DNA of 64,000 bases from Candidatus Rifleibacteriota bacterium (GTDB lineage: Bacteria > Muiribacteriota > Ozemobacteria > Ozemobacterales > Ozemobacteraceae). Position 1 is the first letter of the stretch; each line of letters opens with the position of its first letter. Under the pieces are notes generated by a model. The model was not told the origin of the DNA. It worked only from the letters and a program-made list of their open reading frames with translations, and did not search any database. The DNA is taken from positions 124,001 to 188,000 of the forward strand of contig JAAYVD010000168.1 in NCBI GenBank assembly GCA_012517355.1, written 5' to 3'. Position numbers and translations under genes: made by a program. Positions 32,807 to 64,000 of the stretch are shown here, piece by piece.

Positions 32807-34975
32807 CTACCAGGGGTGGTTGATCAGCCGGATGTGCAGCCCCGGATTGCGGTCGAGATACTCGCGCAACCCGGCGTGGTCGATGGCATACAGGGCCACC
32901 CGGTCGCGGGCCACGAAGGTCCGCGGCTGATCGGCGGGGCCGTGGAACAGGCGGCGGACCCCGAACAAGCCCCCGCGCGACAACACCGCCAACCGCGTCC
33001 CCCCGACCATGACGTCCACCGTTCCCTCGCGGATCAGCCAGGCCTGCTGGCCGGCCTCTCCCTCCAGCGGAATCGCCTGCCCCGCCGGCACCGGCTGATC
33101 GAGGGGCTGGACGAGCCCGTGCAGCCGGGTCTGCTGCGCCGCCGTCAGGTTCCGGAAAAGGGGGTTCACCGCCAGGGTCTGTCGCACCTCGACGTTCTGG
33201 TACAGGGCGATCTGCCGCAGCAGCTGTTCGCTCTCCGTCCCCCGGATCAGGCTCAGCATCTCGGCCCGGTCGATGCACAGCACGCGGGCGGCGGTGCGCG
33301 CCACGGCGGCGGCGGTGCGGCTCTCGGCGACGAACAGGCTCTTCTCGCCAAAGTGCCCGCCCACCCCGTAGGTGGTGATCACCCGGCCGTCGAGCACGAT
33401 GTCGACCGCCCCGTTCATCACCACGAGGAAGGTGTCGCCGGGATCTCCCTTGTGGAAGAGTGCCTCGCCGGCCCGGCAGGTCCGCACCCGGGCGATCAAC
33501 AGCAGTTCCCGCGCCTTCGGCAGGGGGAGCGACTCGAACAGGTCGACGTGCGAGAAGGCATCGATGATCGCGACCGCCTCGTCGTGCCGGCCCTGGCCGT
33601 CGACCAGGGCGATGGTGTTCTGCAACCCGGTGGGAGCCAGGCGCAGGCCGCTGTCGGCCGGGATGTGGGCCGGGTTGACGTGGACGAGATACATCCGCTC
33701 GCGCACCTCCCGGGGCAGGCTGCACAGGAAGGACATCGGCGTGTGGAGCGGCGGCACGCCCGCCTCGTGGAAGATGAGGTCGCGGTCCCAAGGGAAGGCG
33801 GTCAGGAAGTCCCGGCGCTGGCGCGACAGGACGCCCTGGTCGTGCAGCCCGGCGATGAAGGCGGGATCGTTCATCGTGTCGGAACTGTAGATCATGCTCT
33901 TCCCGTGCAGGAAGGCCTGGATGCCGATGGTCGGGATGGAATGGAGCGTGTAGTGGAACTCGAAGCGGACCTCGTCGATCATCATGGTCTCGCCGATGCG
34001 CACGGGGAAGAAGGTGACCAGCTTCTGCAGCTGGCTTTCGGCCAGGCCGGTCAGGGCGGCCGACTTGCGCAGGAAACTGCGGAAGATCGTGGGCGTGGTG
34101 TAGAGGTTGACCTTCTCCTCCTGCAGGATTTTCTGCAGCGTGCCGGCGTCGTGGTCGGCGTGGCAGTGGGTCAGGATGACCTTGTCGATCCACTTGGGGC
34201 TCACCCCCAGCCGCTGCAGCGTTTCCGCCGACCCCACGGGCGGATCGACCACGATGCCGCGCCGGTTCGCCCAGATGATGATGCCCGACGTGCTGGCATC
34301 GGGATCGAACCCGTGGCCGGCCCCGAGCGTGGTGACGCCGAATCCGGGCGGCCGGAAGTCAGACCCGGGGTCGGTGGGGGCTGGGCGGGGTTCGATGAGC
34401 GGGTCGTCCTGGCGCAGCGAGGCGAGTTCCCTTCCCGCCTCGGACACTCGCAGACCGCCGTCGGCCCCGAAGCGGACCTCGTACCCGTCGAAGGCGGCCA
34501 CCCCGCCCGCGCCTGGGAGCACGAACTCGACGAGGTGGTCGAGGGTGAGGAATCCGGTCGCGGGCGGCGGCAGGCGGCGGAAAAACCCCATTTCGGCCGC
34601 CAAGTCGGGAAACCCGGGCGTGTCCGGGCCTTCCACGAACTCGTCGGCAAGGTCGATGGCCGCCGGCCCGAACAGGGCCTCCGACAGGACGGCCTCCAGG
34701 CGCGCGCGCTGGGCGGGTTCGCAGACCACCCGGGCCTTCCCCTTCCGCACGAAGAAATGGAAATAGATGGGGAACTCGATGTCGGCCACCGACACGCCGG
34801 TGGCCAGGTCGAACATCTCCCTCGGCACGATGAAGGTATGGGGAACCCCGCCCGGCCCTTTCATGGTGTCCTTGATCGTTTCTGGCGGAATGCCGAACTG
34901 GATGTTGCCCCGCGCCGTGGAGATGAGAAACCCTCCCCGCGACAGCCGGCTGAATCCGGGAGCGGTCCTGCCCAT
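32807..34975 (-). CDS. Metallo-beta-lactamase-fold hydrolase fused to two cyclic-nucleotide-binding domains
   Basis: The ATG at 34975 has GAGAGGTG close upstream. 722 residues. The first 200 are a region with no recognised domain (ISTARGNIQFGIPPETIKDT). An MBL fold spans about 205-470, with VILTHCHADHD (HxHxDH), YSSDTMND and IFHEAG for the dinuclear metal site. A cyclic-nucleotide domain near 500-600 (GEALFHKGDPGDTFLVVMNG, then GGHFGEKSLFVAESRTAAA) has the Gly-Glu and Arg expected for a phosphate-binding cassette. A second, more degenerate one lies near 620-722 (EGEAGQQAWLIREGTVDVM). MBL activity gated by a cyclic nucleotide is the obvious inference. Cytosolic; no signal peptide. Confidence 0.9.
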   Translation of the reverse strand: MGRTAPGFSRLSRGGFLISTARGNIQFGIPPETIKDTMKGPGGVPHTFIVPREMFDLATGVSVADIEFPIYFHFFVRKGKARVVCEPAQRARLEAVLSEALFGPAAIDLADEFVEGPDTPGFPDLAAEMGFFRRLPPPATGFLTLDHLVEFVLPGAGGVAAFDGYEVRFGADGGLRVSEAGRELASLRQDDPLIEPRPAPTDPGSDFRPPGFGVTTLGAGHGFDPDASTSGIIIWANRRGIVVDPPVGSAETLQRLGVSPKWIDKVILTHCHADHDAGTLQKILQEEKVNLYTTPTIFRSFLRKSAALTGLAESQLQKLVTFFPVRIGETMMIDEVRFEFHYTLHSIPTIGIQAFLHGKSMIYSSDTMNDPAFIAGLHDQGVLSRQRRDFLTAFPWDRDLIFHEAGVPPLHTPMSFLCSLPREVRERMYLVHVNPAHIPADSGLRLAPTGLQNTIALVDGQGRHDEAVAIIDAFSHVDLFESLPLPKARELLLIARVRTCRAGEALFHKGDPGDTFLVVMNGAVDIVLDGRVITTYGVGGHFGEKSLFVAESRTAAAVARTAARVLCIDRAEMLSLIRGTESEQLLRQIALYQNVEVRQTLAVNPLFRNLTAAQQTRLHGLVQPLDQPVPAGQAIPLEGEAGQQAWLIREGTVDVMVGGTRLAVLSRGGLFGVRRLFHGPADQPRTFVARDRVALYAIDHAGLREYLDRNPGLHIRLINHPW

Positions 34976-46551: not shown

Positions 46552-49500
46552 ATGACCCCGCCCACCCTCCGCCTGCGCCGGACGGACGGAACCTTCCTGG
46601 ACATCCCGACCCTGCCTTGCGACCTTGGCCGGGAGGCGGGGTGCCGCATCCTCCTCGACGACCGGCAGGTCAGCCGGCGACATGCCCGCCTGGAGGCGGA
46701 CCCCGACGAGCCGACCGCCCTGCGGGTCACCGACCTGGGCAGTTCGAACGGCACCTACGTGAACGGGCGTCGGATCGGCGGCACGGTCACCGTGCGGCCT
46801 GGCGACGAGCTTCGGATCGGCGGCTCGACCTGGCGGCTGGAAACGCCCGCCGCGCCGGCCTTTCCCGCCGGCCAGCCGGTTCCCCTCCCCCCGACTCCAC
46901 CATCGGGCCAGTATTCCCCAGCGGCTCCCCCGGCCGGACAACCGCCAGCCGTCGCTGCCGGCCAGGCGCGGGAAGGGACGTCCGCCCCACCATCCCCACC
47001 ACTGGCTCCTGACTCCGAAACGACCGGGCAACCAGGGTCGGTCCCCAAACCGGCCCACGCCCCGCCACGGGCAAGCCCCGTCATCCCTTCCACCACCCCC
47101 TCCCCTCCCGCCGGCACCAGGCACCATCCCGCTCCACCACTGCCGCCGCCCCCGCCACCGCCACCAGTGCCCGCCTTCATCCAGGCCACACCGCCCGCTC
47201 CCCCCTCTCCTCCTCCGCCGCCGCCGGCCCCACCAACACCGCCGCCGGTCCCCACGGCAACCCCAGCCGGATCCCCTGACGCCTCGCGCGACCTTCCCCG
47301 CCAACCGCCACCACCGGTTCCTCCCGACGCCGCAACGCCCTCAGCCCACGCGCCACCTTCCCCCGCCCCCCCGCCACCACCGCCGCCAGCGACCCCGCCC
47401 GGGCCGGACGGAACCCCATCCCCCCCCCACCGCTGGTGGATCGCCGTGGGCGCCGCCCTCCTTTTGGTCGTGGTTTCCCTGGCCTGGTCCCGATGGGCCG
47501 GGCGGCGGCCGGACAACGGCCCCCGCCCTGGGCCCATCGTCGATCTCGCCAGCCAGGCGGTGGGCGACAGCACCACCGGCCAGGTGGTGGCCTGGAACGA
47601 CCGGATCACCGTCGCCCTGCCCCCCGGCTCCGTGACCGGCAACGGCACCCTGGTCATCGGCGGCCTGACCACCCCCACCGGCCCGTTGCCGCCCGGGGCG
47701 GTGGAACTGGCCTCGGCCAGCCTGCGTCTCGACGGCCCCGCCAGCCTCACCGCCCCGGTGGCGGTGGCCTTCCGGTTCGATCCCGCCCTGGTGGAACCCG
47801 CCCCTGGAGCTTCCGCCCCGGCCGTCGTCGGCTGCTGCTGGGACGAGACCCTCGGCATGTGGCTGGCGGCACCCACCGCCTTGGATGCCACGCGCGGAGT
47901 CGCCGTGGTGATGACCCGACACTTCTCGATCTGGCGCGTGCTGTATCTGGGCAAGGGCTACCTGATCCGCGACACCACCCACTTCCGGGTGGTCCACGCC
48001 GAGAACCACGACATGATCCTGGGCAGCCGGCTGGAAGAGGCTCCCCAGGCCGCTTTCACCACCGGCACGATGCTGGAGAACGCCTGGCGGTCCTACGACC
48101 GTGCCGGCTTCACCATGCCGGGCACCTCGTGGGACCAGGCCCTGCAGAAGCTGCTCGTCGCCATCCCCAACCTCGACCTCACCCCCGGCAAGACCTGGAT
48201 CTTCCTCAACTGCCGCGACTGGTGGGTCACCAGCGAGAAGATGGATTCCACCTCCCCCTACCGCTCCGGCACGACCGGCGCCATCTATCTCAAGGGGAGC
48301 TACGACGACCTCGACGAGCTGCGCGGGGTGACCGCCCACGAGTACTTTCACGCCGTCCAGAACGAGTACATGAACATCTACTCCCTCGGCCTCCGCTATT
48401 GGTGGATCGACGCCACCGCCGACTACGCCGCCGAGAAGGTGGCCTGGGAAGGCAAGATCGCGGGCATGGGGGAAGGGATCTCCGCCACCTGGCTCGACAC
48501 CCCGCTCTGGGCGGCCGACGGGCTCAAGGAATACCGCACCGCCCATTTCATCGATTTCGTGCTGGGGCCGACCGGCGCCGGGCAGTTCCCCGCCCTGTGG
48601 CGGGCCACCATGGAAGGGGTGTGGCTGCAGAGCGTCATCACCCGGCTGGACGCCCACCTGCAACAGACCACCAGCCGCCCGCTTGGCTCCTGGTTCCGCG
48701 AGTTCGCCGCCTTCCTGCTGTTCTCGAGCGCCACCCCCTGCCGCGGCGAACGCCGCTTCCTGGGCTCCCCCACCGCCGCCCAGCGGCTCGCCGACCTGCC
48801 CGCCGACCAGGTCGCCCGGCCCCTGGCGCTGAGCACCACCTCCGGCCTCTGCGCCGCGGTGACCGGCATCCGCCCGGCGTTTCGCACAGGACAGGCCTTC
48901 CGACGCCTGCGGGTGAGCTGGCTGGAGGCCAGCCGCCCCGAGATGACCGTCGACCTCGTCCGGCTGCCCGGCAACCGGGAGGTTCCGCGGGTGCGTCCCG
49001 AACCGCTGGCCGGGGTCGGCGCCAGCGCCACCGTCACCCTGCGTCCGGGCGACGTCCTGTGGGTGCTGGCCTGCAACACCGCCCTGACCGAGGGCGGCGG
49101 GCAGGTCAGCCTCAACGTCCTCGACGAGTCGGTCGACCTGGGGCTCGAGGGAACCCCCGACCGGGCGAAGCTGACGAAGGTGACCTTCACCGCGACCGCC
49201 CGCGGCGTTCCCCCCGGGGCCGGACCCCTGACCTGCCGCTGGCGGTTCGACGACGGCGATTTCGGCCCGTCGCAGCCGGTGCCCGTCCCGACCGCCCCCG
49301 CCATGACCTGGGCCCGGGAAGAGGAGTTTCCGGCCATCACCGCGCACACCGCGGGCCTGCAGCTGCTGGCCGGCTCCGAACTGCTGGCCGAGACCGCCTG
49401 CGAGGTCAAGACCTGCTTCGTGCAGCTGGAACCCCGCACCGTCCTGGCCAGCCCCGGCCAGGAGGTCGCCTTCCGCGCCGTGGTCGCCAACCCGCCGCCG

Positions 49501-50547
49501 GATCCCCTCTTCCGATGGTCGTTCGGCGAGGGCCAGGCCGGCCAGGAGACCACCGTCCCCGAGGCCCGCCACGCCTGGCCCGCCCCCGGCGAGTTCCCCG
49601 TCCAGGTCGTCCTCCTGGCCGCCAGCCGCCGGGACGCCCCCCTCGACCGGTCGGCCGGCACGGCCCGCATCGAGGCAGGTTCCCCGCCCCCCGCCGCCCC
49701 GGCCGGGAACCTCGACCCTCCGCCCGGCTGCCTCAACCACGACTACTCCCGGCTGACCCGCCATGACGAACCAACCGACGTGTATTACACCAACGCCAGT
49801 GGAGTCCGGGAGGGCTGGGAAATTCGCTGGCACGACGAGGGCCGGTCACGCAAGGCGTTCGAAGGGTGCTGGCACGAGGGCGAGCAGCAGTGCCGGCACC
49901 GGCACTGGTATCCCGACGGCCAGCCGGAGTTCGAGGCGACCTTCGACCAGGGCGTCAACGAGGGGCCCTGCCGCCGGTGGTATGCGAACGGCCAGCTGAA
50001 CGAGGAGGCCACCTACCACCTGGGCGCGGTCAGCGGCCGGATCACCACCTGGTATGACACCGGCAAGGTCATGAGCGAGACCGATGTCGAGACCGGCCCC
50101 GAAGAGATCCAGGAGCCGGTCTTCGCCGACCGGAAGCCCCACCGGGTGCTGACCGTCATCGGCGGCAAGACCGTCAACTACTACCCGGACGGCAAGAAGA
50201 AGGAACAACGGATCACCCGCCACAACCAGTACCAGGGTCAACATTTGTACTGGAACGAAAAAGGCGTGCTGATCCGCGAGGAGAACTATCGCGACGGCAA
50301 GCTCGACGGCCCGTTCCGCACCTTCTACCCCGACTCCGGCAACCTCTGCTCCGAATACGTCTACGGGAACGGGCTTCGGCAGGGTCTGTACCGCCTCCTG
50401 CGCGACAACGGCACCGTCAAGATCAAGGGCCAGTACCGGGACAACCACATGGTCGGCGAATGGCTCCTGTTCACCCCCGACGGCAAGGTCAAGGACCGGA
50501 TGGTCGACTGGGAGGGGGAGAACCTCGACTGGGCCATGGCCCCCTGA
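46552..50547 (+). CDS. FHA-TM-HExxH metallopeptidase-PKD-MORN multidomain protein
   Basis: 1331 residues from the ATG at 46552 (GGAG 8 bases upstream). The FHA domain spans 1-97: CDLGREAGCRILLDDRQVSR, RHARLE and LGSSNGTYVNGRRIG give the phosphothreonine-binding residues. A Pro-rich linker (about 98-295) leads to a membrane span near 300-320, then a ZU5-like beta region (ITVALPPGSVTGNGTLVIGG). A peptidase-like domain has HEYFH at 596-600 and, 19 residues on, WWIDATADYAAE (Asp620, Glu628 as third-ligand candidates). Two PKD-like segments follow (about 860-1030). At least seven MORN/YwqK-type repeats fill about 1075-1320 (WYPDGQPEFEATFDQGVNEG, WYANGQLNEEATY). A cytoplasmic phospho-reader would be linked to an extracytoplasmic protease; activity is inferred. 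Confidence 0.88.
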   Translation: MTPPTLRLRRTDGTFLDIPTLPCDLGREAGCRILLDDRQVSRRHARLEADPDEPTALRVTDLGSSNGTYVNGRRIGGTVTVRPGDELRIGGSTWRLETPAAPAFPAGQPVPLPPTPPSGQYSPAAPPAGQPPAVAAGQAREGTSAPPSPPLAPDSETTGQPGSVPKPAHAPPRASPVIPSTTPSPPAGTRHHPAPPLPPPPPPPPVPAFIQATPPAPPSPPPPPPAPPTPPPVPTATPAGSPDASRDLPRQPPPPVPPDAATPSAHAPPSPAPPPPPPPATPPGPDGTPSPPHRWWIAVGAALLLVVVSLAWSRWAGRRPDNGPRPGPIVDLASQAVGDSTTGQVVAWNDRITVALPPGSVTGNGTLVIGGLTTPTGPLPPGAVELASASLRLDGPASLTAPVAVAFRFDPALVEPAPGASAPAVVGCCWDETLGMWLAAPTALDATRGVAVVMTRHFSIWRVLYLGKGYLIRDTTHFRVVHAENHDMILGSRLEEAPQAAFTTGTMLENAWRSYDRAGFTMPGTSWDQALQKLLVAIPNLDLTPGKTWIFLNCRDWWVTSEKMDSTSPYRSGTTGAIYLKGSYDDLDELRGVTAHEYFHAVQNEYMNIYSLGLRYWWIDATADYAAEKVAWEGKIAGMGEGISATWLDTPLWAADGLKEYRTAHFIDFVLGPTGAGQFPALWRATMEGVWLQSVITRLDAHLQQTTSRPLGSWFREFAAFLLFSSATPCRGERRFLGSPTAAQRLADLPADQVARPLALSTTSGLCAAVTGIRPAFRTGQAFRRLRVSWLEASRPEMTVDLVRLPGNREVPRVRPEPLAGVGASATVTLRPGDVLWVLACNTALTEGGGQVSLNVLDESVDLGLEGTPDRAKLTKVTFTATARGVPPGAGPLTCRWRFDDGDFGPSQPVPVPTAPAMTWAREEEFPAITAHTAGLQLLAGSELLAETACEVKTCFVQLEPRTVLASPGQEVAFRAVVANPPPDPLFRWSFGEGQAGQETTVPEARHAWPAPGEFPVQVVLLAASRRDAPLDRSAGTARIEAGSPPPAAPAGNLDPPPGCLNHDYSRLTRHDEPTDVYYTNASGVREGWEIRWHDEGRSRKAFEGCWHEGEQQCRHRHWYPDGQPEFEATFDQGVNEGPCRRWYANGQLNEEATYHLGAVSGRITTWYDTGKVMSETDVETGPEEIQEPVFADRKPHRVLTVIGGKTVNYYPDGKKKEQRITRHNQYQGQHLYWNEKGVLIREENYRDGKLDGPFRTFYPDSGNLCSEYVYGNGLRQGLYRLLRDNGTVKIKGQYRDNHMVGEWLLFTPDGKVKDRMVDWEGENLDWAMAP

Positions 50548-55905: not shown

Positions 55906-56105
55906 GCACTTGCCTGCCCCGCCAGGAGGGGTGGTATGGTAGATTTTGGGAGTCAGGAGGCCGGATTCCGACCGGGAGGTGGTCGGCCCTCCCTCTTGCT
56001 GTCACCGCCGGTGGCGAAGACCCCGCTTCATGCATCGCAAGAGGGCCAGCCCCGCGGACCCGCCCCTGATGGACCTTGCCCCATTCGACGACCACAGGAG
56101 GTTCC

Positions 56106-56807
56106 ATGAACGGATTCCGGTTGACGGTCTGGCTATGCCTTGGACTGCTCGGAGCCGGTTGGCCGGCCGGCGCGACCGCCGGCCAGGACCCGGTTCCCCC
56201 GAAGGCGCCGTTCCCCGCCGAGGTGGTCGCCCGTCTCGACCAGGCGGGGGCCCGGCAATGCCTCGAAGTCCGTGTCCACGACCCCGCCTCCATCACCGCC
56301 ACGGTCCAGGCCTGGGAACACCGGCCCACCGGCTGGGCCCCCGCCCTGGCCTCCTTCCCCGCCGTCATCGGGCGCAAGGGGCTGGCCGATCCCGGCGGCA
56401 AGCGGGAAGGCGACGGCAAATCGCCCGCCGGGGTGTTTCCCCTCGGGTTCGCCTTCGGCTACGCCCCTGCCGCCCCGACCCGCTGGCCCTATCACCCTGC
56501 CGCCCCCGACGACGTCTGGATCGACGACCCCGAGGCCCCCGACTACAACACCCTGACCAAAAAGGGCGCCACGACCGCCCGGTCCTTCGAGTTCCTGAAG
56601 CGGCCGGATGACCTGTACAAATACGGCCTGGTGGTCGAATACAACACCCGCCCGGTGGTCAAGGGTCACGGCAGCGCCATCTTCGTCCACCTCTGGAGCG
56701 GACCCCGGTCCGGAACCGCGGGGTGCGTCGCCTTCGACGAGGAGTCGATGCTCGCCCTGCTCGGCTGGCTCGATCCCACAGGCCAGGCCCACATCTTCCT
56801 CCATTGA
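56106..56807 (+). CDS. Exported L,D-transpeptidase (YkuD)-like protein
   Basis: The ATG at 56106 has AGGAGG 5 bases upstream. The 233-residue product has a signal peptide (LTVWLCLGLLGAGWPAGATA, cleavage near TAGQD). The mature region has the YkuD-like pattern GHGSAIFVHLWSGPRSGTAGCVAF near residues 188-211, with the catalytic His, Gly and Cys in order, and an upstream GKREGDGKSPAGVFPLGFAF typical of the family. Such enzymes cross-link or anchor proteins to peptidoglycan, although this sub-branch (like YbfF/ErfK-related proteins) is poorly characterised. Periplasmic. Confidence 0.85.
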   Translation: MNGFRLTVWLCLGLLGAGWPAGATAGQDPVPPKAPFPAEVVARLDQAGARQCLEVRVHDPASITATVQAWEHRPTGWAPALASFPAVIGRKGLADPGGKREGDGKSPAGVFPLGFAFGYAPAAPTRWPYHPAAPDDVWIDDPEAPDYNTLTKKGATTARSFEFLKRPDDLYKYGLVVEYNTRPVVKGHGSAIFVHLWSGPRSGTAGCVAFDEESMLALLGWLDPTGQAHIFLH

Positions 56808-57797: not shown

Positions 57798-60700
57798 ATG
57801 CTCGAAACCCTCGAATTCTTCTCCTCACTCACCCCGTCCGAGATCCAGGAGATCGCCCGGATCGCCAAACGCATGGAATTCCGGCGCGGCGAAACCATCT
57901 TCCAGCAGGGAGACGTCTCGCGGGACCTGTACGCCATCGAGAGCGGCCTGGTCGAGATCTCCACCAAGAGCGTCCTGGCCGAGACCAAGGTCCTGGCCCA
58001 GTTGAAGAACGGTGACCTGTTTGGCGAGATGGCCCTCTTCGACGCCCATTCGGTGCGGTCGGCCTCGGCCAGGGCCCTCCAGAACTCCATCGTCATCGTC
58101 ATCCCCGGCACCGAGTTCGAACGGCTGCTGAAGGAAAAGCCCACCATCAGCTTCAAGCTCCTGGGCACCCTCAGCAAGCGCCTGAAGGACGCCAACCAGC
58201 GACCCCCAGGAGGCGCCCCCGGCGCCCCCGCCGGTCCCGGCAAGATCATCACCGTGGCCGGACCCCGCAACGGAGTGGGCAAGACCACCTTCGCCGTGAC
58301 CGCCGCCCAGATCCTCGACCAGGAGGCCGGCGCCCGCACCCTGTTCCTCGACCTCGATCTGCCCTTCGCCGATGCCACCTACGCCCTCGGGGTCCATTCC
58401 GTCCGCACCGTCATCGAGTTCTCCGGCGTCGCCCGCGGCGATTACCCCGATTTCGACGCCATCCGCAAGCACCTCACCCACGTCGGCACCAACCTGTTCT
58501 GCCTCCCCGGCCCGGTCAACATCATCGACGGGGAAAAGCTCGACCCCCAGTCCCTCGTGGTCTCCATCCGCCTGTTGCAGCGGTTCTTCGAATACATCGT
58601 GATCGACACCGACTCCCGCATCGACGAGGTGTTCCTGGCCGCCCTCGACCTCTCCGACCGCATCTATTTCGTGGTCGATGCCCAGCACCCCTATGCCATC
58701 AAGAGCAGCTCCCGCTACTTCTACGGCCTGGGCAAGCTCCACCTGGCCGAAAGCCGCATCTCCGTCCTGCTGGCGCGCTCCGCCCAACCGGCCGACCGCA
58801 AAGCCCTGGCCAACCTCCTCCGGCTGCCGGTCCAGGCCCAGCTGCCCGTCATCCCCGATCACCAGCCAGTCTACGGCAAAGGAATGCTGCCCGCCCAGGC
58901 CGGCCATCCCTTCTGCCACACCGTCCGCCAGTTGCTGCAGGACTTCTTCCCCGTCGAGTTCCGGGCCAGCCGGCAACAGGGGTTCCTCTCCCGCCTGTTC
59001 GCTCCCGACGGAGCCCCCGCGGCCGCCGCCATCGCCGACAAGACCGCCCCCCTGGCCGAGGTGGCCGAGAACCGGGTCGGCTTCCGCGACGCCAACTTCC
59101 GGGCCCTGCTCCGCTACATCCGCACCGGCCTGGTGGCCGGCCAACTGGCCGAGGCCCGCCGCGCCATCCTGCAACTGGTCGAGTTGAGCGGCACCTCGGC
59201 CCCCGTCTTCCAGACCTACGGCGAGATCCTGATGCAGGAAGGGAAGGCCTCCGAAGCCATCGATGCCTTCCACAAGGCCGTCCAGCTCGACCCCGACTGC
59301 CACCTGGCCCTCGGGTTCGCCGGCATCCTCTCCCTCGACCGCGGCCTGTTCCAGCAGGCGGTCGCCCTCCTCCAACGCAAGATCGACAAGCACCCGAACT
59401 GGCCGGACCTGCGCCGGGACCTGGGCGAACTGTTCCTGCGCAACGACCGGCCGGAGGAAGCCCTCTCCACCCTGCAGGAAGCTCTCCGCATCAACCCCCG
59501 CTACGAGGATGCCCGGGTCCGCCTGGCCGAGGCCTACTTCCGCCTCGGTCGGGGCGAGGAGGCCATCCGCGAGTTGCTGGCCATGTCCCAGAAGTCGGCT
59601 CCCGCCTATTACCTGCTCGGCCGCTGCTTCCAGTCGGTCGACCGGTTCCCGGAAGCCCTCGAAGCCCTGCGCATCGTCCAGCGCATCTGCCCGGACTACC
59701 GCGACACCAACCAGCGCATCGACGAGCTGCAGGACTACTTCGTCAAGCTGAACAACCTCATCTCCATCCACCAGAAGATCCGCCGCGAACAGCCCACCTA
59801 CCTCGACGTGCGGCTCAAGCTCGCCCAGCTCCTGGCCTCGGCCGGCCGCCGCTCAGAGGCCGAAGCCGAGTGTCGGGATGCCCTTCTGATGAAACCCGGG
59901 TTCAAGGCCGCCCAGGACCAGCTCGACCGCCTGCTGAACCTCCCCGTCTACGAGATCGACCACCCCGAAGTCCCCTCTCCCACCCGGACCTGCCGCGGGG
60001 TGGTCTGCACCGGCTTCCACATCGGACTCAACCTGGGAGACCAGGCCCTGGAACCCGCCGTTCAGGAGCGCCTGTCCAAGCACCTGTTCTGGTTCCGCAA
60101 CATCCGCACCGGCAAGACCTGGGAGTTCAAGATCCCCCCCACCCTCTCTCCCCACATCGATCTGAGTGCCACCCCCATCTGTCCGGTGACCGAAAACGAT
60201 GTCATCCTGGTCAAGCTGCTCAATCCCCAGACCGGCGAGGTGCTCTTCTCCGACGCCCACCTGATCGACACCCCACGCGAGCCCCACTGCCAGATCAAGC
60301 TCGACTTCTCCGGACCCCTGCGGCAGATCATCGACCGCCTGCCTCTCATCACCCCGGTCCGGGTCTTCCTGCTCGGCGTGCCACGCGAAACCCTCTTCCC
60401 GAAAGGGAAGGACCACGACGTCCTGACGCCGCCCCTGCTGGTCAACCCCCGCAACGGCGCCCGGGCCGAAGGCCGGGTCGATCCCGACCAGCCCGGGCAA
60501 TTCTGCTTCGTCCTGTCCGCACCCACCGAGGAAGACGTCGTCAAGATCGGAGACCTGCTGGAAGTCCACCTGGCCAAGGAACCCGGCAAGGGAACCATGG
60601 CCCTCCAGGTGCGGGTTGGCCCTGACGACCTCGTCAGCTGCTCACGACTCCTCGCCCCCGAGGAAGGGGAGAAGCCCCTGCCCTCCGAGGCGCCCTCCCC

Positions 60701-61304
60701 GACCCCCGACCGACCACCCTGGCCGGCCGGCTCCCGCGTCCCCACAACCATCCCACCCGCCACGCCACCCGCCGCCACACACCCACCCGTCCCACCGCCC
60801 GCACCCACGGCCGACAACCCCGCCCCGTCAACGACTCACCCCACCGCGCGCCCCCCGGCCACCCCACCAGCCTCTGTCGCGCCCCAGCCTCCGGCTTTCG
60901 CCGCGCCGGCACCACCAGCCACCCCACCAGTCCCTGTCGAGCCCCATCCTCCGGCCACGCCTCCGGCCCACGCCTCGCCCCAGCCTCCGGCCACGCCACC
61001 GGCTCCTCCAGCGCCCCAGCCTCCGGTCACGCCACCGGCTCCCGCAGAGCCGCCATCGCCGACCAACCCTTCCACCCCGACGGCCAGACCTCTGCCGACC
61101 ACCCCAACGCCCCCGGCCACCCCACCCGCCCCCGCCACCCCGCTGCCGCCGGCCAAGCCTTCGGCTCCCGGCAGCCCCCCACCGCCCAAGCCTCCAGCCA
61201 AGCCGACCGGCAGCCCCCCGCCGACCACGCCCCCGTCAACACCGACCGGTGGCCTCCCGCCCGCCCCCCCGCCCCGGCCGCCAACCAAGCCTCCGGCCCG
61301 CTGA
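57798..61304 (+). CDS. cNMP-binding domain / ParA-MinD-type ATPase / TPR fusion with Pro-rich tail
   Basis: 1168 residues from ATG 57798 (AGGAGG 7 bases upstream). Residues 1-135 are a cyclic-nucleotide-binding domain (GETIFQQGDVSRDLYAIESG, LFGEMALFDAHSVRSASARA with the Gly-Glu and Arg of the binding cassette). About 150-410 is a SIMIBI P-loop ATPase of CpaE/MinD type: Walker A GPRNGVGKTTFAV, LFLDLDLPFADATYALGV, and YIVIDTDSRIDEVFLAALDL. About 440-690 are TPR repeats (QTYGEILMQEGKASEAIDAF, RRDLGELFLRNDRPEEALST). Next come 250 residues of unknown beta-rich sequence with PilZ-like hints only, then a Pro/Ala/Thr tail of about 180 residues. ATPases of this class place pili or other polar machines; the prepilin cluster downstream fits that. 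cNMP control is inferred. Confidence 0.9.
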   Translation: MLETLEFFSSLTPSEIQEIARIAKRMEFRRGETIFQQGDVSRDLYAIESGLVEISTKSVLAETKVLAQLKNGDLFGEMALFDAHSVRSASARALQNSIVIVIPGTEFERLLKEKPTISFKLLGTLSKRLKDANQRPPGGAPGAPAGPGKIITVAGPRNGVGKTTFAVTAAQILDQEAGARTLFLDLDLPFADATYALGVHSVRTVIEFSGVARGDYPDFDAIRKHLTHVGTNLFCLPGPVNIIDGEKLDPQSLVVSIRLLQRFFEYIVIDTDSRIDEVFLAALDLSDRIYFVVDAQHPYAIKSSSRYFYGLGKLHLAESRISVLLARSAQPADRKALANLLRLPVQAQLPVIPDHQPVYGKGMLPAQAGHPFCHTVRQLLQDFFPVEFRASRQQGFLSRLFAPDGAPAAAAIADKTAPLAEVAENRVGFRDANFRALLRYIRTGLVAGQLAEARRAILQLVELSGTSAPVFQTYGEILMQEGKASEAIDAFHKAVQLDPDCHLALGFAGILSLDRGLFQQAVALLQRKIDKHPNWPDLRRDLGELFLRNDRPEEALSTLQEALRINPRYEDARVRLAEAYFRLGRGEEAIRELLAMSQKSAPAYYLLGRCFQSVDRFPEALEALRIVQRICPDYRDTNQRIDELQDYFVKLNNLISIHQKIRREQPTYLDVRLKLAQLLASAGRRSEAEAECRDALLMKPGFKAAQDQLDRLLNLPVYEIDHPEVPSPTRTCRGVVCTGFHIGLNLGDQALEPAVQERLSKHLFWFRNIRTGKTWEFKIPPTLSPHIDLSATPICPVTENDVILVKLLNPQTGEVLFSDAHLIDTPREPHCQIKLDFSGPLRQIIDRLPLITPVRVFLLGVPRETLFPKGKDHDVLTPPLLVNPRNGARAEGRVDPDQPGQFCFVLSAPTEEDVVKIGDLLEVHLAKEPGKGTMALQVRVGPDDLVSCSRLLAPEEGEKPLPSEAPSPTPDRPPWPAGSRVPTTIPPATPPAATHPPVPPPAPTADNPAPSTTHPTARPPATPPASVAPQPPAFAAPAPPATPPVPVEPHPPATPPAHASPQPPATPPAPPAPQPPVTPPAPAEPPSPTNPSTPTARPLPTTPTPPATPPAPATPLPPAKPSAPGSPPPPKPPAKPTGSPPPTTPPSTPTGGLPPAPPPRPPTKPPAR

Positions 61305-61538: not shown

Positions 61539-62213
61539 CTACAGCGGCTCGATATCGGTCGAAATGCGGAACCGGCTCTTCTCCCGCATCCGCAGGTCGG
61601 GGCGCTGCGGGTTCTGCAGCAGGAACTCGATGGTCAGCACCTGGGCGCTCTCCTCGGGATAGGCCCGGACCGATCCCTCCAGGCCGACCACGTTGGCCAG
61701 CAGTTCCTGGTGCAGGACGGTCTTGCCCCCGACCTGGATGCGGGCGTGCAGCCGGACATCGGGCCGGCTCCCGGTGAGATACCCGGTCACCACCCGGTCC
61801 TGGTAGCCCCCGCTGCCGTCGGTCTTCTGCTGGATGGCGTTGAACCGCCAGACCGGCCATTCGCCCGGCCCGTCGACATATCCCATCATCAGGTTGCCGG
61901 TCCCCCCGAACCGGATCTTGACCGGCTCGGTGGCGATGTCGGGGGTGCCCACGACCACGCCCTTGGCATCCACCGTCAGGGACTTGATCTTGCCGGTCGC
62001 GGCCGAGAAGTATTTCTGCCAGAACACCTCGTTGAGCCGGATGGCGTCGAGCGAGGACTGTTTCCACCCGGTCAGGGCCTGGGCCGAGTTCATCCACCGG
62101 GTGAACCCGAAGACGACCATCGACACCAGGCCGAACACGCCCACGGCCACCATCACCTCGACCAGGGTGACGCCGCGGCAGGACGGGAAACGAACAGCAC
62201 CGGGCCGCCTCAT
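61539..62213 (-). CDS. Prepilin-type cleavage/methylation domain protein (PilW/GspJ-like)
   Basis: The ATG at 62213 overlaps the stop of the preceding gene. The 224-residue product has the prepilin motif CRGVTLVEVMVAVGVFGLVS with Glu at mature position 5, and a soluble domain typical of GspJ/PilW size. Last gene of a four-gene coupled cluster. Confidence 0.9.
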   Translation of the reverse strand: MRRPGAVRFPSCRGVTLVEVMVAVGVFGLVSMVVFGFTRWMNSAQALTGWKQSSLDAIRLNEVFWQKYFSAATGKIKSLTVDAKGVVVGTPDIATEPVKIRFGGTGNLMMGYVDGPGEWPVWRFNAIQQKTDGSGGYQDRVVTGYLTGSRPDVRLHARIQVGGKTVLHQELLANVVGLEGSVRAYPEESAQVLTIEFLLQNPQRPDLRMREKSRFRISTDIEPL

Positions 62214-62740
62214 GACCCCTCCTTCTTGGTGATCTGGATGGTCACCTGCATCGTCACCTCGCTCTCGAGGCCGTCCTTCCCGTAGTTGGGGATGCGGCTC
62301 GCCGCCGAGGCGGTGATCCGCAGGTAATCGTCGACGTAGCCGGGCCCGAGGCCGGTGGCCTTGCGGGTGATCCCCAACCGTTCGATCGCGGTCACGCGCG
62401 CGGTCAGGGTGGCGTTCTCCCGCACCAGGCTTTCGTCGAGAACGTCGAGCCGGAGGTCGCTCAGGAAGGTCTGGTAGAGGTCGTCGGTCTTCTTCGCGCC
62501 GGTCTCGTCGTGCCGGTACCGGAAGGCGGTATACAGCTCGGTGGGATGCGCCTTGATCTTCAGCTTGGCCGCGTCGATGGCCGACAGGCACAGCAGTTCG
62601 AGCTGGGTCCGCTCCCGGGTCGCCAGCTTCTCGTAGCCCTGGCTGACCGACCGCCGCATCAGATAGGTGGCGAAGATCAGCGAGACGGTCAGGGCGACCA
62701 GCACCATGACCACCACGACGCCCCGGCGCCGCGCCCTCAT
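62210..62740 (-). CDS. PilX-like minor pilin-type protein without Glu5
   Basis: The ATG at 62740 overlaps the upstream stop. The 176-residue product begins MRARRRGVVVVMVLVALTVS, a basic leader, Gly and hydrophobic helix like those of PilX/GspK pseudopilins, which often lack Glu5. The rest is alpha/beta with no known motif (LELLCLSAIDAAKLKIKAHP). Overlaps both neighbours by 4 bp. Confidence 0.75.
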   Translation of the reverse strand: MRARRRGVVVVMVLVALTVSLIFATYLMRRSVSQGYEKLATRERTQLELLCLSAIDAAKLKIKAHPTELYTAFRYRHDETGAKKTDDLYQTFLSDLRLDVLDESLVRENATLTARVTAIERLGITRKATGLGPGYVDDYLRITASAASRIPNYGKDGLESEVTMQVTIQITKKEGS

Positions 62741-63264
62741 TCGAGGTCCGCCTTGTACATGATCAGCTTCAGCCGCTCGGGCTGCCGGTCGAGCCGCGAC
62801 GTCCAGCCGACCTCGAAATCCAGGCGCAGGAACTGCTTGTAGGCCGTCATCGAGGCGATCCGCCCGGGCTCGGGGCTGAACTCGAACCACAGGTCCTTCC
62901 GCGCCGCGTCCCGCATCACGTAGCGGATCTGCAGACGGTAGTCGAAGGTCGTGTTGTTGAGCACCTCTCGGGAGGGGACCCGCACGGTCTGGCCGGCGGT
63001 CGTGCCGAACGTGCGGTCGAGCGGGACCGGGTTGCCGATCGGGAGCTGGCTCGCCGGGAGCGCGACCAGGGTGCGCAGGAAGGACGTCCCCGCCTGCATG
63101 GCCGTCTGGTAGTCGCTGGTGACCTGCGTGGACACCGAGCCGCGGCCGAACAGCCCCATCAGGGGCATCAGGGCCATGGCGAAGATGGTGATGCCGAGAA
63201 TGACCTCGACCAGCGAGAAGCCGGTCGCGCCCCCCGCCTGCCCGGTCAGGACCCTTCCCGTCAT
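62737..63264 (-). CDS. Prepilin-type protein (PilV/GspI-like)
   Basis: The ATG at 63264 overlaps the upstream stop. The 175-residue product has GATGFSLVEVILGITIFAMA: a classical F-S-L-x-E prepilin site with Phe at mature position 1 and Glu at 5. The small C-terminal domain fits PilV/GspI. Confidence 0.92.
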   Translation of the reverse strand: MTGRVLTGQAGGATGFSLVEVILGITIFAMALMPLMGLFGRGSVSTQVTSDYQTAMQAGTSFLRTLVALPASQLPIGNPVPLDRTFGTTAGQTVRVPSREVLNNTTFDYRLQIRYVMRDAARKDLWFEFSPEPGRIASMTAYKQFLRLDFEVGWTSRLDRQPERLKLIMYKADLE

Positions 63265-64000
63265 TTCTTGCGATCGGCCTGGATGTCGGTCTCGAGGATC
63301 CGGATCTGGAACCGGCTGGGCACGATCGGGAAGTCGATCTCGAGGTCGCGGCGGTTGTTGTTCAGGTCGAGGGTCTCCAGGCGGAAGGTGTTCGACCCCG
63401 TGCTGGCGCCGGTGCCAGGATTGCGCAGGCCGGTGGCGGCATCCGCGTTCCCCACGCGGAAGATGTAGGACAGGGGGGTGCCGTCGGGATTGAGCAGCCG
63501 CAGCGGGGCGGGATCGTCGGGGTTCCTGACCACCTCGACGGCCAGTTCGTCCCGATAGGCCACCTTGCGCTCGTCGATCACGTTCTGGAGGAACTCGTAG
63601 CCGATCTTGCGGAAGGCGTGGTCGGCGACCACCCGGCCGTTGGGCGCCAGGCTGTCGTCCTGCCAGAACAGCAGGTTGTCGCGCACCGACAGGTCGAGCA
63701 CCACGACCTCGTCCTCGGCAAAGCCCGGATCCCCGGGGTTGGCCACCTGGAAGGCGGCCTTGATGTCACGGTCGCCCAGCCGGATGACCTGGTCGTCCCA
63801 TTTCGAGGTGTTGGTCTCGGTGATCGGCAGGTTGTCCCGCACCTCGTCGAGGTTCGCTTCCCGCTGGTAGACATGGCCCGGCGCGGTGAAGCGGCTGGTG
63901 AAGGCGCCCCCGGCCGCGAACACGAGATCGGGGTCGTTGTAGGGGTGCCGCCAGGCCACCAGCAGCCCGTCCTTGGCGGCCCGGGTCCGGTCTGCGAGCA
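63261..64000 (-). CDS. Large protein of the prepilin cluster, 5' end outside window
   Basis: The reading frame stays open to the last base (a GTG at 63959 is inside it), so at least 246 residues of the C-terminus are present and the N-terminus is missing. The visible part is beta-rich and Asp/Asn-rich (TETNTSKWDDQVIRLGDRDI, LDLNNNRRDLEIDFPIVPSR), with no cysteine and no known motif. The stop overlaps the PilV-like start, so it is the first visible gene of the same operon and may be a large pilus-associated or tip protein (inferred). Confidence 0.65.
   Translation of the reverse strand, partial: LADRTRAAKDGLLVAWRHPYNDPDLVFAAGGAFTSRFTAPGHVYQREANLDEVRDNLPITETNTSKWDDQVIRLGDRDIKAAFQVANPGDPGFAEDEVVVLDLSVRDNLLFWQDDSLAPNGRVVADHAFRKIGYEFLQNVIDERKVAYRDELAVEVVRNPDDPAPLRLLNPDGTPLSYIFRVGNADAATGLRNPGTGASTGSNTFRLETLDLNNNRRDLEIDFPIVPSRFQIRILETDIQADRKK

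Follow-up and report, generated by a model that had tools for sequence, protein, structure and literature searches.

A cyclic-nucleotide-binding domain fused to a MinD/CpaE-type ATPase in Candidatus Rifleibacteriota: a possible membrane-associated spatial regulator

CpaE/TadZ proteins act in the positioning of pili. Positioning ATPases are known to take inputs from partner proteins and from phosphorylation-type signals. Haloferax MinD2 and MinD4 influence where chemosensory arrays and archaella are placed (PMC11588486). A relative of these ATPases is encoded in a stretch of 64,000 nucleotides, hereafter the window, from Candidatus Rifleibacteriota bacterium (assembly GCA_012517355.1, contig JAAYVD010000168.1, positions 124,001 to 188,000 of the forward strand). 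The gene is located at 57798..61304 (+) of the window and encodes a protein of 1168 amino acids (aa). A cyclic-nucleotide-binding (CNB) domain is followed by a MinD/CpaE-type ATPase, a motif resembling a membrane-targeting sequence, an array of tetratricopeptide repeats (TPRs), two tandem C-terminal domains, and a Pro-rich tail. There is about an even chance that this protein is a second-messenger-gated ATPase of the MinD/CpaE family that associates with the membrane and regulates spatial arrangement or assembly there.

The start codon and the full reading of the gene are backed by orthologues, with 74% identity in L001 and 76% in L002 over the part that is present. The codon-position GC is typical for coding DNA. 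Pfam profiles identified cNMP_binding (residues 26-113), AAA_31 (residues 149-302), and TPRs (residues ~430-712). The first-pass annotation of this DNA had placed a cNMP-binding domain, a MinD/CpaE-type ATPase, and TPRs in one protein, and the profile search and the orthologues confirm it. To these can now be added the MinD-like membrane-targeting motif, the tandem C-terminal domain, and the Pro-rich last ~210 aa. A literature search of titles and abstract openings did not find a CNB-MinD/CpaE fusion named, which is not proof of its absence from print. No relative of the protein was found in the viral contigs that were searched. Among plasmids, 357 records match parts of the protein and none covers 80% of the CNB plus ATPase. 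A Bacteroidales sequence (L003) was considered as a relative and was dropped, as its match is confined to the TPR part.

The CNB domain (57873..58136, +, residues 26-113) matched PF00027 with 78.2 bits against a cut-off of 27.5 (E 4.9e-22). Its best PDB match by phmmer is a Crp-family regulator (E 5.9e-15), and PKG/PKA receptors are also among the closest structures. The phosphate-binding cassette (58023..58064, +, residues 76-89) has the form G-E...R-[S/T], with G76, E77, R87, and S88. By both profile and cassette, the protein belongs with the cyclic-nucleotide-binding domain proteins. The E-R spacing of 10 in the cassette is the same as in E. coli CRP. G76, E77, R87, and S/T88 are kept in 23/23 aligned rows of the TPR clade, the branch of the family in which the window gene is found. 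The first-pass annotation had named a non-functional cassette in all homologues as a finding that would refute its reading, and the intact motif in the TPR clade speaks against such a loss. There were 24 aligned rows outside the clade. Three of these were set aside (two receiver-CpaE proteins and one CNB protein without the ATPase), and of the remaining 21 CNB-ATPases, 15 keep the cassette arginine and six have lost it. These losses would fit a CNB domain with a structural role and no ligand, as is the case for some regulators of the Crp/Fnr type. For the window protein this is quite unlikely, given the unbroken cassette of its clade and the 82 matches to PF00211, a class III cyclase family, in its own genome, all over the family cut-off. 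The intact pocket motif and the cyclase matches make a cyclic-nucleotide-gated, membrane-associated spatial regulator plausible. Many of the 82 matches are in reading frames of more than 1000 aa, and in some cases one contig has two of them in frames of equal length. The window also contains a second cyclic-nucleotide receptor (32807-34975, -, 722 aa), which has a metallo-beta-lactamase (MBL) domain and two cNMP_binding stretches.

The ATPase (58242..58967, +, residues 149-390) has the Walker A sequence PRNGVGKTT and is a P-loop domain of the MinD/ParA superfamily. AAA_31 matched residues 149-302 with 31.5 bits against a cut-off of 27 (E 2.1e-7), and the CbiA profile reached 22.8 bits, slightly under its cut-off of 25.4. 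PDB matches include MinD (1ion, E 1.7e-8) and a ParA-family protein (3ea0, E 2.7e-8). MinD of E. coli K-12 is 29% identical to the aligned segment of the window protein (alignment A3), and the P-loop lysine and the conserved aspartates are intact. Directly after the ATPase, the sequence QQGFLSRLF (58968..59003, +, residues 391-402) aligns with the C-terminal KKGFLKRLFGG of E. coli K-12 MinD, and in the window protein it is internal, not terminal. Comparable motifs, such as KKTWLGNLFGG, are found at the C-termini of many short paralogues.

The TPR array (59082..59933, +, residues 429-712) was identified with Pfam TPR families (TPR_19, E 9.9e-26). With alignments of two to three sequences as input, AlphaFold modelled it as helical hairpins with a predicted local distance difference test score (pLDDT) of about 60-89 over most of its length, and this is the sole usable part of the models. 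The array is followed by two tandem, mutually related domains (60000..60635, +, residues 735-946). A test for internal duplication of the C-terminus found none with two sequences and found one with 12. With the 12-row alignment (A5), hhalign related the two halves with a probability of 91% (E 1.1e-6), and 30 column shuffles gave at most 1.9%. Residues 735-946 have no Pfam match and no PDB match below E 0.43, and the mean pLDDT of the C-terminal part is 54.8. The Pro-rich tail (60663..61301, +) is variable. It is largely missing from the L001 orthologue, with 6% identity and 176/213 positions gapped.

The CNB-ATPase fusion is phylum-wide. When a 20-row CNB-ATPase alignment was searched against 39 genomes of the phylum, 37 matched at E 1e-25 and at least 29 hold a match that spans the CNB and the ATPase. 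Nine such genes are present in the genome of the window, and four of these have a TPR part (C71, C69, C2, and C10). The TPRs were recognized by Pfam in C71, C10, and the second half of C69, and in C2 by a match spanning residues 1-956. A quick tree built from 40 rows supports the TPR clade (Shimodaira-Hasegawa-like approximate likelihood ratio test, 99). The window gene clusters with L001/L002 (support 100), whereas the placement of L031 as the next sister is weak (81). TPRs are also present in L039, which is outside the clade.

Among named organisms, the closest relatives are Candidatus Ozemobacteraceae (L001) and Candidatus Ozemobacter sibiricus (L002). They contain two same-genus orthologues, the second of which is divided between two contigs of its genome, with the C-terminal half in L026. 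Identity between the window protein and L001 is 83% in the CNB, 77% in the ATPase, 79% in the TPRs, and 71% in the C-terminus. A gene for an L,D-transpeptidase (YkuD; 56076..56807, +; PF03734, E 2.8e-10) is found upstream in 3/3 cases, with gaps of 990 bp in the window, 113 bp in L001, and 112 bp in L002. Downstream of the gene in L001 and L026 there are a VWA gene and a pyruvate kinase gene, the latter read by eye. The conserved transpeptidase gene is the single indication of a client, and it suggests the cell envelope as the best-supported client area of the window gene.

From these parts a mechanism can be proposed. A cyclic nucleotide (cAMP or cGMP) from one of the many cyclases would bind the N-terminal domain. 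The bound nucleotide could then alter the cycle of ATP-driven dimer formation and membrane binding that the ATPase goes through, and the TPR arm and the C-terminal domains might hold a client at the membrane site of the ATPase. Several observations weigh against this proposal. The position of the signature lysine of the deviant Walker A motif is R157, and it is R, K, Q, or G across the clade. Thus, the dimer chemistry may differ from that of MinD. The stretch that resembles the membrane-targeting motif is ordinary in hydrophobic moment (rank 120 of 1158 windows), and the motif is absent or weak in the clade members L050, L051, and L036. The AlphaFold model of residues 1-713 has a mean pLDDT of 43.4, is poor for the CNB and the ATPase, and gives no pocket geometry. 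The link with the YkuD gene is genetic only, L,D-transpeptidase enzymes act outside the cytoplasm, and the 990-bp gap in the window contains an open reading frame (ORF) on the opposite strand.

The first-pass annotation had described a convergent prepilin operon ~230 bp from the gene. This operon is present, with a stop-to-stop gap of 234 bp. It contains a prepilin-type gene in the GspJ position (61539..62213, -; PF07963, N_methyl, E 1e-5 on the longer ORF 61539-62591), a GspK-like gene (62210..62740, -; weak NCBIfam T2SS_GspK match, E 1.6e-4, on the ORF 62210-62890), and a GspI-like prepilin gene (62737..63264, -; PF07963, E 0.0058, below cut-off, with weak GspI/XpsI matches). At its head is a gene that encodes at least 1328 aa. 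It reaches the contig end (L025:1261-5247, -), and the window contains its last part (63261..64000, -). It could be thought that the window protein positions or controls the adjacent pilus or pseudopilus, as the annotation proposed. The convergent operon itself, the role of CpaE/TadZ proteins, and the L031 member of the family, which is related but distinct and follows a GspD-N0 gene, would agree with this. So would a paralogous group (group B) that is found beside DNA-uptake genes and, in three genomes, pilus-assembly genes. However, there are no prepilin genes beside the orthologue in either same-genus stretch (L001 and L026). The genome of the window also has a very large pilin-like set: at E 0.01 or better, PF07963 has 137 prepilin-type matches there, and these form 90 clusters. 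If the clusters are taken to be spread uniformly over 7.11 Mb, 2.9% of random 3.5-kb genes fall within 850 bp of a prepilin cluster, and the chance of at least one such adjacency among the nine family genes is 23%. The other eight have no prepilin match within 8 kb on their contigs. Because prepilin-type matches are so dense, adjacency is weak evidence. Together with the orthologue comparison, this rules it out as functional evidence for the window gene. A pilus role for this protein is therefore unlikely, and the prepilin operon most likely adjoins the gene by chance.

The idea of pilus positioning does fit group B. Synteny with pilin genes is lacking for the orthologues of the window gene (0/2), and in group B it is seen at three loci. 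This group has nine members and a clade support of 86, drawn open. ComEC/ComEA/MBL/DHH-type genes are alongside in 9/9 loci. ComEC is present in eight of them, and L030 has ComEA, MBL, and DHH without ComEC. On the opposite side, T2SSE/T2SSF/prepilin genes were found in three of the seven loci with a flank there, in genomes G005 (L038), G026 (L061), and G028 (L047). The copy in the genome of the window (G000) contains an in-frame TAG, so this gene may be broken. An apparent DNA-uptake island with ComEC, a ComEA-like gene, T2SSE, two T2SSF genes, and a prepilin gene surrounds the CNB-MinD-TPR gene in L047 (G028), L061 (G026), and L037/L038 (G005).

Other paralogous groups have neighbours of their own. 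A protein kinase gene is beside the C96-type loci in 4/4 cases (L043, L053, L058, and L071). L043 (9032-14092), L053, and L058 additionally contain a second ATPase of the MinD type, whose N-terminus looks FHA-like by eye. YtfJ is found beside six of seven C160-type genes (L040, L060, L062, L064, L072, and L074) and was not found in L059. HemW-like genes, identified by eye, are beside two deep relatives, L054 and L057. A flotillin-like gene, FloA, is directly after the CNB-ATPase-TPR gene C10 (L029:7685-11010, -). STAS genes are directly upstream of the short paralogues L041 and L044. At L041:9105-12528 (+), genes for STAS, CNB-ATPase, ODP, and SpoIIE are in a row and resemble a partner-switching operon. 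The window itself contains a 1331-aa protein (46552-50547, +) with FHA, a long Pro-rich stretch, PKD, and MORN repeats.

The signalling neighbours of short paralogues bear on a further explanation, in which the protein is a soluble, cNMP-regulated scaffold or signalling adaptor for partner-switching or kinase networks. The P-loop domain would then be only a nucleotide switch, with no spatial positioning. The STAS genes (L041 and L044), the SpoIIE-type phosphatase (L041), and the protein kinase genes (L043) beside short paralogues agree with this, as does the unconserved signature lysine. The C-termini of many short paralogues, which resemble membrane-targeting motifs, and the aligned motif in the window protein favour membrane association instead, and the soluble adaptor appears rather improbable.

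A membrane-associated regulator thus remains the preferred reading for the window protein. That each group keeps its own neighbours argues for different clients, and each probably serves its own. It is tentatively possible, at well under an even chance, that the Riflebacteria/Ozemobacteria phylum has lineage-specific, cyclic-nucleotide-gated organisers of the MinD type. Each paralogue would place or assemble a different envelope machine (a DNA-uptake pseudopilus, wall enzymes, or flotillin domains). The TPRs and tandem C-terminal domains would serve as adaptors to the client, and the inputs would come from dozens of nucleotidyl cyclases. If this is true, cell organisation would have a new kind of input, in which a whole ATPase family is wired directly to a cyclic-nucleotide receptor, and the genome of the window has 82 cyclase matches. 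For group B, the conserved DNA-uptake genes alongside offer a concrete, testable client.

The known systems each share some features with the window protein. As in MinD, a P-loop ATPase domain is present, and it is followed by a stretch that may correspond to the MinD membrane-targeting motif. MinD differs in that the window protein has an N-terminal CNB, an internal motif, TPRs and tandem C-terminal domains, and R at the signature-lysine position. Crp-type receptors likewise have a CNB domain with the conserved cassette, whereas no DNA-binding domain was found in the window protein, whose output appears to be the ATPase and scaffold. In CpaE/TadZ of Tad pili, a sensory domain also precedes a MinD-type ATPase, and the two-domain part is of similar length. 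However, the window protein has a CNB and not a receiver domain. No Tad or pilus assembly genes (T2SSE, T2SSF, or Flp) are alongside, and the minor-pilin-type genes that adjoin it are not conserved in either orthologue. The earlier suggestion that the cNMP domain replaces the receiver domain is fair as a comparison, since the phylum has separate receiver-CpaE genes within its Tad operons, in G037 (L057) by Pfam and in G014 and G016 (L068 and L069) by eye. At L057, the CNB-ATPase gene follows a Tad operon that has its own receiver-CpaE. The comparison does not make the window gene a Tad CpaE, and this assignment was rejected, as the window gene is not in such an operon. FlhG and MinD4 types are also ParA/MinD-superfamily ATPases and place motility or chemosensory machines; the part of the Haloferax report consulted does not mention a CNB or TPRs for MinD2 and MinD4 (PMC11588486). 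By its features the window protein is a member of neither MinD nor CpaE, yet, judged from its sequence, it would work like the MinD/CpaE/FlhG positioning ATPases.

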